From assembly GCA_019912315.1 (NCBI GenBank), contig JAIOJA010000019.1:1-64000 (forward strand): a DNA stretch of 64,000 nt. The letters are read 5' to 3'. This DNA is from Planctomycetota bacterium (lineage in GTDB: Bacteria > Planctomycetota > UBA8742 > UBA2392). Made by a program: the position numbers and the translations under genes. Below are positions 24,743 to 27,482 of this stretch, piece by piece. The first letter of the stretch is position 1. Each line of letters starts with the position of its first letter. The notes beneath the pieces are model-generated. The model was not told the DNA's origin, did no database searches, and was given only the letters and a program-made list of their open reading frames with translations.

Positions 24743-25951
24743 ATGACAACAACCGAAGCCACAGCCACCAACTTCGACCTGACTGAAGAGCAGCAGCAGA
24801 TCCAGCAGGCCGCGCGCGAATTCGCCCGTGATGCCGTCGCGCCGCTCGCACAGGAGCTCGACGAAAAGGCCGAGTTCCCCGTCGACAACTACAAGCAGAT
24901 GGCCGAGCTGGGCTTCCTCGGGCTCAGCATCCCCGAAGAGGCCGGCGGCAGCGGTTTTGACACCCTGAGTTTCATTCTCGTCGTCGAAGAACTCAGCAAA
25001 GTCTGCGGCAGCACCGGCCTCGGCTACGCGGCCCACATCAGCCTGGGCGTCACGCCGATCCACCTGTTCGGCACGGATGAACAGAAGCAGAAGTATGTCC
25101 CGCAACTCTGCAAAGGCGTCGATGACGCAGGCAATCTAACCCTCGGCTGCTTCGGCCTGACCGAGCCCGGCGCAGGCTCCGACGCCGGCGGCACCAAAAC
25201 CACGGCCGAGCGCAAGGATGACCACTGGCTAGTAAATGGCAGAAAGGCCTGGATCACCAACCCGCATTACGCGAAGACCTGCATCTTCACCGCCAAGACC
25301 AACCAGAACCCGAAAGATGGCAAAGGCATCACCGCGTTCATCGCCGAGCTCGACACCCCCGGCTTCAAGGTCGAGGCCAAAGAGGACAAACTGGGGATGC
25401 GGTCTTCCGACACGGCCCAGCTCGTGTTCGAAGACATGAAGCTGCCGCTGGACGCCGTCGCCGGCGGCGAGCCCCAGGTGGACGTCGGGTTTAATAAATT
25501 CATGAAGACCCTGGCGGGCGGGCGCATCAGCATCGGCGCGCTCGCGCTCGGTATCGCCGAAGGGGCCTACCAGAAGGCGCTGGAGTACGCGCGCCAGCGC
25601 AAGCAGTTCAACAAGCCGATCGGGACCTTCCAGGGCGTGGCCTTCATGCTCGCGGACATGGCCATGGAGATCAGCGCCGCGCGCCACCTCGTGTATCACG
25701 CCGCGCGCCTAAGGGACGCAGGCCGAGACTTCGCCCAGGCCGGCAGCATGGCCAAGCTGATGGCCAGCGAAGTTGCCATGAAGACCTGCACCAACGCGAT
25801 TCAGGTGTTGGGCGGCGTAGGCTACACAAGGGAGTACGACGTAGAGCGCATGCTAAGAGACGCCAAGCTCTGCGAAATCGGCGAAGGCACCAGCGAAGTC
25901 CAGCGGCTGGTCATCAGCCGCCAGATCCTCGGCGATTTGCGAAACGTCTAG
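24743..25951 (+). CDS. Acyl-CoA dehydrogenase
   Basis: FGLTEPGAGSDAGGTKT, YARQRKQFNKPIGTFQGV, QVLGGVGYTREYDVERMLRDAKLCEIGEGTSEVQRLVISR. Confidence 0.95.
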   Translation: MTTTEATATNFDLTEEQQQIQQAAREFARDAVAPLAQELDEKAEFPVDNYKQMAELGFLGLSIPEEAGGSGFDTLSFILVVEELSKVCGSTGLGYAAHISLGVTPIHLFGTDEQKQKYVPQLCKGVDDAGNLTLGCFGLTEPGAGSDAGGTKTTAERKDDHWLVNGRKAWITNPHYAKTCIFTAKTNQNPKDGKGITAFIAELDTPGFKVEAKEDKLGMRSSDTAQLVFEDMKLPLDAVAGGEPQVDVGFNKFMKTLAGGRISIGALALGIAEGAYQKALEYARQRKQFNKPIGTFQGVAFMLADMAMEISAARHLVYHAARLRDAGRDFAQAGSMAKLMASEVAMKTCTNAIQVLGGVGYTREYDVERMLRDAKLCEIGEGTSEVQRLVISRQILGDLRNV

Positions 25952-25998
25952 AGCCCCGGCCGAAAGGCCGGGGACACCCGCCGATGTTGGCGGGTGAA
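25950..25998 (-). repeat. REP-like double hairpin, copy 1
   Basis: reverse complement ttcacccgccaacatcggcgggtgtccccggcctttcggccggggctct. Confidence 0.85.
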
Positions 25999-26132
25999 AG
26001 CAGTTTGGGGTTTCGTTCACGGGGCAACGTTGCGAATTGATGCCGGATTCGTTCACGTGGCAACCGCGCCGTCACGCATCGCGCACGTTTGCTACGCGAA
26101 CCCGCGGCCTTTCGGGCACTTATGCCGGATTC

Positions 26133-26182
26133 ATTCACCCGCCAACTTCGGCGGGTGCCCCCGGCCTTTCGGCCGGGGCTCT
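26133..26182 (+). repeat. REP-like double hairpin, copy 2
   Basis: attcacccgccaacttcggcgggtgcccccggcctttcggccggggctct. Confidence 0.85.
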
Positions 26183-26187
26183 GTTTA

Positions 26188-26727
26188 TTAAATGTCGGGG
26201 CCTTGATCTTCGAGGACGTACTTGATGGCGCGTTTCAGTGAGCGCTCGCTTCGGATGCGTCCTTTGTTTCCTCGTTCGGTCCATATTGGTTGATCCGGCG
26301 GGAATGCCTTCTCCTCGCGGAGGATGCGGGTGGCGCGGGCCTTGATGGCGTTCAGCATCTTGCTGGCTGGCTCGGCGGCTTCGACTACCAGGTGCACGTG
26401 GTTGGTGCGGACGTTGATGGCGTGGAGCCCCCAGCTTTTGAAGTTGCAGTAGTTCTCGATGGTCTCGCGCACGATGCGGCGGGCGTTTGCGTCGAGCTTG
26501 ACCTTCGGGTGCTTCAGGCGCTCTTCCATGTACTCGTGCAGGATGGGGTCGGGCGCGACGTACTTGCGATCGATGTCCTTTGACTTGCGATCAACTGAGC
26601 CGCGCTCATTGCCGTGCAGCCAGGTTCCGTAGGTGGTGAACGGTTCTGGTGGTCGATTCGCCCGCCAACTTCGGCGGGCGTCCCCGGCGTTTCCGCCGGG
26701 GCTCTGATGCCCCGGGGTGTGTCGCAT
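26188..26727 (-). CDS. REP-associated tyrosine transposase (RAYT; HUH/Y1 family)
   Basis: FTTYGTWLHGNERGSVDR, NHVHLVV (HUH motif), IKYVLEDQG (candidate catalytic Tyr); N-terminus translated through REP copy 3. Confidence 0.85.
   Translation of the reverse strand: MRHTPGHQSPGGNAGDARRSWRANRPPEPFTTYGTWLHGNERGSVDRKSKDIDRKYVAPDPILHEYMEERLKHPKVKLDANARRIVRETIENYCNFKSWGLHAINVRTNHVHLVVEAAEPASKMLNAIKARATRILREEKAFPPDQPIWTERGNKGRIRSERSLKRAIKYVLEDQGPDI
26656..26705 (+). repeat. REP-like double hairpin, copy 3 (inside RAYT 5' end)
   Basis: attcgcccgccaacttcggcgggcgtccccggcgtttccgccggggctct; compensatory g/c change in hairpin 2 (ggcGttt/CSgcc). Confidence 0.85.
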
Positions 26728-26774: not shown

Positions 26775-27482
26775 ATGAACAAGGCTCAACGTAAACGGGA
26801 GGCTCGGGAGAAGAAGGCTCGGGCCAAGGCGGCCAAGAAGGCCAGGAAGACGGTGGCTACTGAGCCGGTGGTGAAGGAGCCGGCCGGGCTTGCTACGGCG
26901 CAGCCCGTGCCTGCTGCTGCCAAAGCTTGTGCGGGCAAGGATGCCCGCACCTCAGATGCGGACAAGGATGTCCACACCACTAAGGACGTTCAGGGCTCTG
27001 AAAAGCCGTGGTACTCGATGACTCAGGAAGAGCTGGTTGCTGATCCTGAGTTGCTGGAGGCCGTGCTGGCCAGTCAGCATCGGGATGAGGAATCCTTTGA
27101 CCTGGCCGACACGGCGCGCGAGGCGGAGCACGAGCTGAAGTGGGCTCGCGGCAAGGCCAAGGAAGCCACGGCTGAGTTGCCACGCCGCCGGCGCATCTCC
27201 GACCAGCGCGCGCTGGAGATGCTGGAGGATGCGGCCGAGGCTACCCACGAAATTCTGCTGATGGTGCGGGACGCCCTGCGCGGCGTGTCACCGGAAAGGC
27301 GCGAGGCCGCGCGCGAGGTCTTGAACGCCAAGCCGCAAACGGGCGTGGACGGGCGCAAGTTGCCGCGCCGCGCACCGGACCCGGTGGTGACGCTTGAGAG
27401 GCTCAACCTCCAGGCTGCGAGTCTGCTGAAACGGATCCTGGCCAAAACCAACCCGGACGCGGGCAAGAAGAAAGCGGCATGA
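26775..27482 (+). CDS. Lys/Ala-rich hypothetical protein
   Basis: MNKAQRKREAREKKARAKAAKKARK N-terminus, helical remainder; REP-like element embedded in frame. Confidence 0.65.
   Translation: MNKAQRKREAREKKARAKAAKKARKTVATEPVVKEPAGLATAQPVPAAAKACAGKDARTSDADKDVHTTKDVQGSEKPWYSMTQEELVADPELLEAVLASQHRDEESFDLADTAREAEHELKWARGKAKEATAELPRRRRISDQRALEMLEDAAEATHEILLMVRDALRGVSPERREAAREVLNAKPQTGVDGRKLPRRAPDPVVTLERLNLQAASLLKRILAKTNPDAGKKKAA
26929..26976 (+). repeat. Two hairpins gtgcgggc-aaggat-gcccgcac / tgcggac-aaggat-gtccaca inside CDS
   Basis: 8-bp perfect stem plus near-identical second copy, encoded peptide AGKDARTSDADKDVHTT. Confidence 0.7.

Follow-up and report, generated by a model that had tools for sequence, protein, structure and literature searches.

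The window, a stretch of 64,000 nt from a Planctomycetota genome, carries on its minus strand a RAYT-like gene for a Y1/HUH transposase, recognised in a sequence-only reading of this DNA by its HVH and YVL motifs, together with three copies of a short palindromic repeat (REP), the first of which shares the stop codon of an acyl-CoA dehydrogenase gene (Table 1).

Table 1. Coordinates of the RAYT-like gene, the REP copies and the shared stop codon, numbered along the window.
Feature	Position	Strand	Details
TAG stop of acyl-CoA dehydrogenase gene (called 24743-25951)	25949..25951	+	T25949 plus AG of the REP tag
REP copy 1	25950..25998	+	AGAG 25950-25953; hairpin A 25954-25973; linker 25974; hairpin B 25975-25996; AA 25997-25998
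REP copy 2	26134..26182	-	AGAG 26182-26179; hairpin A 26178-26159; linker 26158; hairpin B 26157-26136
Inverted doublet (REPIN-like, AGAG outward), copies 1 and 2	25950..26182		233 nt
RAYT-like Y1/HUH transposase ORF	26188..26727	-	179 codons
Putative catalytic tyrosine Y170 of YVLEDQ	26218..26220	-	from sequence and alignments
HUH motif HVH, residues 110-112	26392..26400	-	from sequence
REP copy 3	26657..26705	-	AGAG 26705-26702; hairpin A 26701-26682; linker 26681; hairpin B 26680-26659

The three copies are 49 nt long (n=3) and 90-96% identical in pairwise comparison; folded as single-stranded DNA, each adopts the same structure of two consecutive hairpins, ....((((((((....)))))))).(((((((((....))))))))).., at an energy of -23 to -25 kcal/mol (z of -6 to -8 against shuffles, with 0 shuffles equally good). 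The sequence-only reading had thus described the copies correctly, as three units of about 50 nt with two perfect hairpins each, and also their compensatory change: hairpin A of copy 3 is a GGCG/CGCC variant, paired like the GGCC/GGCC of the others. Rfam matches in this region lie far below gathering scores and result from its palindromes. As for the arrangement, copy 1 is indeed inverted relative to copies 2 and 3, its AGAG tag lying on the plus strand and theirs on the minus strand; the proposal that oppositely oriented copies bracket the gene holds in so far as copies 2 and 3 flank it, but these two have the same orientation. Copy 1 is not a flanking copy, since it lies with copy 2 on the 3' side of the gene, where the two form an inverted doublet, and copy 3 is found inside the 5' part of the ORF rather than beside it. 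Between copies 1 and 2 (26004-26130) lie degenerate sequences related to the repeat (TTCACGNGGCAAC arms, CCCGCGGCCTTTCGGGC), so this long doublet is probably an old cluster.

The transposase has the Y1/HUH core, with an HUH motif and a single catalytic tyrosine, and matches Pfam Y1_Tnp at 29.6 bits (cut-off 23); against NCBIfam REP_Tyr_transpos it reaches 37.8 bits, below the cut-off of 80, and it is therefore filed as RAYT-like and not as a member of that equivalog. A phmmer search of the PDB gave 0 matches for the RAYT, and only fold comparison gave any: a model of a congener RAYT, modest in quality (pLDDT 70, two-row alignment), has as its best PDB match 4er8, the E. coli RAYT with REP DNA, at 15% sequence identity, the Foldseek matches also including the IS608 and ISDra2 transposases. 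Residues 30-179 of the window protein are homologous to intact RAYTs, residues 1-29 being read through REP copy 3. Missing are the start codon, the inner repeat of the 5' doublet and the first strand (AYHLT, for example); this strand, which precedes the FTTYGTWLHG segment, is present in 25 of 26 relatives and predicted at residues 9-17 in the congener. The simplest reading of this N-terminal loss is a deletion that fused the RAYT to copy 3, but the genome was assembled from a metagenome, and a misassembly could also account for it. With start codon and first strand lost, the window RAYT is probably dead, and it is the genome's one match to its RAYT clade; eight further Y1_Tnp (PF01797) genes in the genome (L030-L036, L038) belong to other RAYT/IS200 branches.

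The repeats are not confined to this locus. The genome (4.01 Mb in 87 contigs, about 89% complete, metagenome-assembled) was searched with a pattern of tag and hairpin A in which two covarying stem positions were left open, with the reversed pattern as control; this yields 50 copies at up to 3 mismatches (control 2) and 38 at up to 2 (control 0), so that the genome-wide search proposed in the sequence-only reading finds the repeats dispersed. At up to 2 mismatches, all six genomes of the genus hold 13-38 copies each (control 0), the five others 13 to 31; some other genomes of the bacterial family hold up to 18, and the pattern is absent, at the same threshold, from 44 Planctomycetota genomes outside the family. 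The copies were examined in detail in a set of 155 from five genomes, gathered by pattern search, in which orthologous repeats of different species are counted separately. Read in the sense of the tag, the consensus is AGAG, hairpin A, one base (usually A), hairpin B, and then usually AA; the foot of the hairpin thus carries AGAG and not the canonical GT[AG]G tetranucleotide. Hairpin A is near-invariant, with a stem of 8 bp (mostly CCCCGGCN/NGCCGGGG), a GNNA loop in 150 of the 155 copies, mostly of GNRA type in the mRNA sense, and paired changes at the third pair from the loop and at the loop-closing pair. Hairpin B (about 6 to 10 bp) varies freely in sequence while its pairing is kept: 114 copies show 73 distinct stems, and, with no selection on pairing, 53% of copies score at least 6.5, against 1% of shuffled downstream sequence. 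Covariation is seen in both hairpins and is strongest in hairpin B. Two ungapped sets show pairing in 98.8-100% of cells, and 10 and 9 pairs changed on both sides, which 0 of 500 shuffles reach; these counts lean towards structure, because pairing in hairpin B was what the sets were chosen for, and hairpin A was itself found by pattern. The arms therefore co-vary across the genome, as the idea of selection on structure, first drawn from the change in copy 3, had demanded.

Relatives of the RAYT, at 62-66% identity, occupy the same place in four congeners, making the locus syntenic in five genomes: on one side lies the acyl-CoA dehydrogenase gene, adjoining or one stretch away, and on the other the same conserved hypothetical gene. 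The latter (26776-27482 in the window) adjoins the RAYT in all five and has a variable, low-complexity middle and no Pfam match; in two congeners the palindrome GGGGACTGTCCCC is repeated inside the gene next to the RAYT (L042:2282-2504, L043:2265-2296). REPs of the window type flank the homologous RAYT in the four congeners, which bears out the association of RAYT and REP proposed for the window; the gene accordingly has at its sides REP-like repeats of a kind scattered through its own genome, and it is present in low copy and inherited vertically without moving as a unit. Most RAYT paralogues and relatives in the bacterial family have inverted flanking repeats of their own, with different stems and often CAG before the stem; at the RAYT loci L051, L052 and L067 flanking repeats were not seen. 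The double-hairpin form, suspected from the window to be uncommon, is indeed that of a minority in the family: on the RAYT tree it occurs in one clade of seven only (support 92/80; the inner branch joining L050 is weak, 83/17). The flanking hairpins of the RAYT clades (L044-L066) mostly share a GNNA-type loop (GAAA, GGAA, GTAA, GCAA) despite their differing stems; this loop is a possible shared recognition feature.

Close pairs of REPs in the 155-copy set are inverted with AGAG outward in 41 of 42 cases, and all but two of these doublets are 82-145 nt long, most commonly 107-112 nt, the two longer ones being the window pair (233 nt) and one in the congener genome G001 (244 nt). Inverted doublets of a preferred length are the REPIN arrangement (Bertels and Rainey 2011, PMC3116915). 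Genes being called with our own codon-usage script, 136 of the 155 copies lie outside called genes, though about 77% of the loci is coding; copies inside genes are rare.

Where a copy follows a gene, it very often lies exactly on the stop codon. In 68 of the 155 copies the TAG stop of the upstream gene consists of a T and the AG of the AGAG tag, as against 8 of 21,800 random positions that form such a stop; in the window genome alone the overlap occurs in 14 of 38 copies (first count), that of the acyl-CoA dehydrogenase gene included. This offset of 2 from the stop thus accounts for 68 copies, every other near offset for 1-3, and for 71 copies there is no gene end close by on the same strand; 7 of 38 doublets provide, with their two ends, the stop codons of two convergent genes. 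For 14 genes with a REP stop, the congener orthologues terminate at that residue or very near it, in most cases with no repeat there, and use TAG, TAA or TGA (genes without a repeat use TAG in 47%, TGA in 28% and TAA in 25%). GTAG REPs often supply TAG stops (Di Nocera 2013, PMC3733652), and the phenomenon is therefore not new in kind; new here are the precision of the overlap and the comparison with orthologues.

This precision can be understood in two ways. The repeats may sit at stop codons because selection removes insertions elsewhere, with site choice by the element playing no aimed part; this is a serious possibility, if somewhat short of an even chance. It agrees with the rarity of repeats inside genes and with the variable base before AGAG at ends off stop codons (C 28, T 27, A 24, G 8), on account of which no simple target rule is visible; yet sites a few bases past the stop should be as harmless, and they are near empty (1-3 copies against 68). 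Alternatively, insertion of the RAYT-mobilised doublet could be aimed at stop codons, entering after the T of any stop so that its own AG makes a TAG, and between convergent genes supplying both stops and filling the gap from end to end. We regard this as doubtful; if true, the element would spread as a portable stop-plus-hairpin module that leaves the proteins unchanged. Presence and absence of the repeat at orthologous stop codons among congeners fits gain and loss alike. An exact empty site at nucleotide level was sought between the close genomes G001 and G002, where L238 and L239 can be aligned on both sides; at the REP-free site in L239 there is a palindromic spacer of 18 nt, TAGTAGGGGCGGCCCCTA, which may have been left behind by a deletion and need not represent the site before insertion. 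Short palindromic spacers replace the doublet in L239, where the TAG stop follows AACGATTAC, and in L235, at the end of RNase PH; TAGTAGGGGCGGCCCCTA and TAGCGGCCTA, respectively, join the stops of two convergent genes there, and are possibly deletion remnants or true pre-insertion sites. Entry of the doublet at overlapping convergent stops (YTAR) was rejected as a simple model, as it fits only some doublets.

The same overlap could be taken to mean that the repeats are RNA elements recruited by the host, which at stops would end transcripts, stabilise the mRNA or slow translation, with an incidental link to the RAYT. With AGAG overlapping the stop, hairpin A begins 2 nt past the TAG, and most of its loops read as GNRA in the mRNA, both of which suit such a role. 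Hairpin A is followed by no T run, however, and a terminator role was therefore rejected; the 71 copies away from any same-strand gene end, the same repeats flanking the RAYT in five genomes and a repeat form that tracks the RAYT clade likewise make this explanation improbable, and any host role may be secondary to mobilisation by the RAYT, not an alternative to it. The Y1_Tnp match and the Foldseek matches to IS608 and ISDra2 transposases might suggest a common IS200/IS605-type insertion sequence with its two ends, but this is scarcely credible given a single clade copy in the genome, the same locus in five genomes and dozens of short dispersed repeats without a gene.

The observed anatomy, dispersal, covariation, doublet orientation, synteny, clade-specific association, stop-codon overlap and N-terminal loss are best explained by a lineage-specific, non-GTAG REP/RAYT system (REPtron) whose doublets are mobilised in trans by a Y1/HUH RAYT, the family here probably being no longer mobilised by the RAYT of the window (probability roughly 0.86). 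Within this REP/RAYT reading we infer the steps of binding, cleavage and mobilisation and the loss of activity. Against it stand the NCBIfam score below its cut-off, the AGAG tag in place of GTAG, a congener distribution that suits gain as well as loss, and the chance that the N-terminal deletion is a misassembly. The mobile unit would be the inverted doublet, about 107-112 nt long, in which each half is composed of the AGAG tag, the conserved hairpin A with its GNNA tetraloop, and hairpin B, kept only as structure. The RAYT, vertically inherited at its fixed locus, would bind the tag together with hairpin A in single-stranded form, cleave the DNA at CT sites close by and, in trans, move doublets or copy them; the copies would build up between genes and in very many cases right at a stop codon, where T plus AG preserves a TAG. 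In the window genome the clade's only RAYT appears fused to REP copy 3, and mobilisation of the family by that RAYT has probably ended. Hairpin B has no counterpart function that we know of; it is possibly a structural spacer or a second protein contact. In known RAYTs the tag at the hairpin foot contributes to the choice of where cleavage occurs, the AG at the end of the tag matching CT (Corneloup 2021, PMC8266576). As AGAG also ends in AG, and the far end of the doublet reads CTCT, CT cutting by the RAYT clade of the window is a reasonable prediction.

Among known systems, motifs and phylum point to TnpA_Y1 class 3 (Quentin 2018, PMC6006769) as the closest to the window RAYT. Shared with it are the occurrence in Planctomycetes, NHVH, W[TA] (here WT), a Y followed by four residues and Q (here YVLEDQ, in relatives YVLNEQ or YVLHEQ), an extended N-terminal conservation (here in the relatives), and atypical flanking secondary structures with repeats dispersed in the genome; YVLEDQ departs from the class 3 consensus YV[VI][AENY]EQ at two positions while keeping the Y-four-Q spacing. 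The class 3 foot is CnGA (PMC6006769), whereas the window clade has AGAG and relatives such as L063 and L066 have CAG or CAGAG before the stem; the available part of the class 3 description contains neither a double hairpin nor a link to stop codons. GTAG REPINs and RAYT-REP systems (Bertels and Rainey 2011, PMC3116915; Nunvar 2010, PMC2817692) likewise combine a single Y1 gene with short palindromic repeats on either side, form inverted doublets (about 71 or 110 bp long) and show co-evolution of repeat and RAYT; the window family differs in its AGAG in place of GTAG/GTGG, in its two hairpins per repeat and in its copy number of tens, not hundreds. TIRYT/TIRtrons and GTAG REPs (Di Nocera 2013, PMC3733652) comprise tyrosine transposases with double-palindromic TIRs, REP termini that often supply a TAG stop, and repeats overlapping transposase ORFs; phyla and tags differ, and the accessible text makes no orthologue comparison at stops. 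With E. coli TnpA_REP (4ER8; Corneloup 2021, PMC8266576) the window system shares the fold, at the 15% identity of the match, and a 4-nt tag at the hairpin foot that ends in AG, proposed to select CT cleavage; the E. coli REPs are bulged single hairpins, those of the window have two.

These observations bear on how REPs choose their sites and on how REP transposases are retained, congeners differing in the presence of repeats at the same stop codons. A single bacterial family contains several RAYT clades, each with its own hairpin, and the change from one hairpin to two maps to a single clade; REP recognition and target choice thus become directly testable outside the Proteobacteria.
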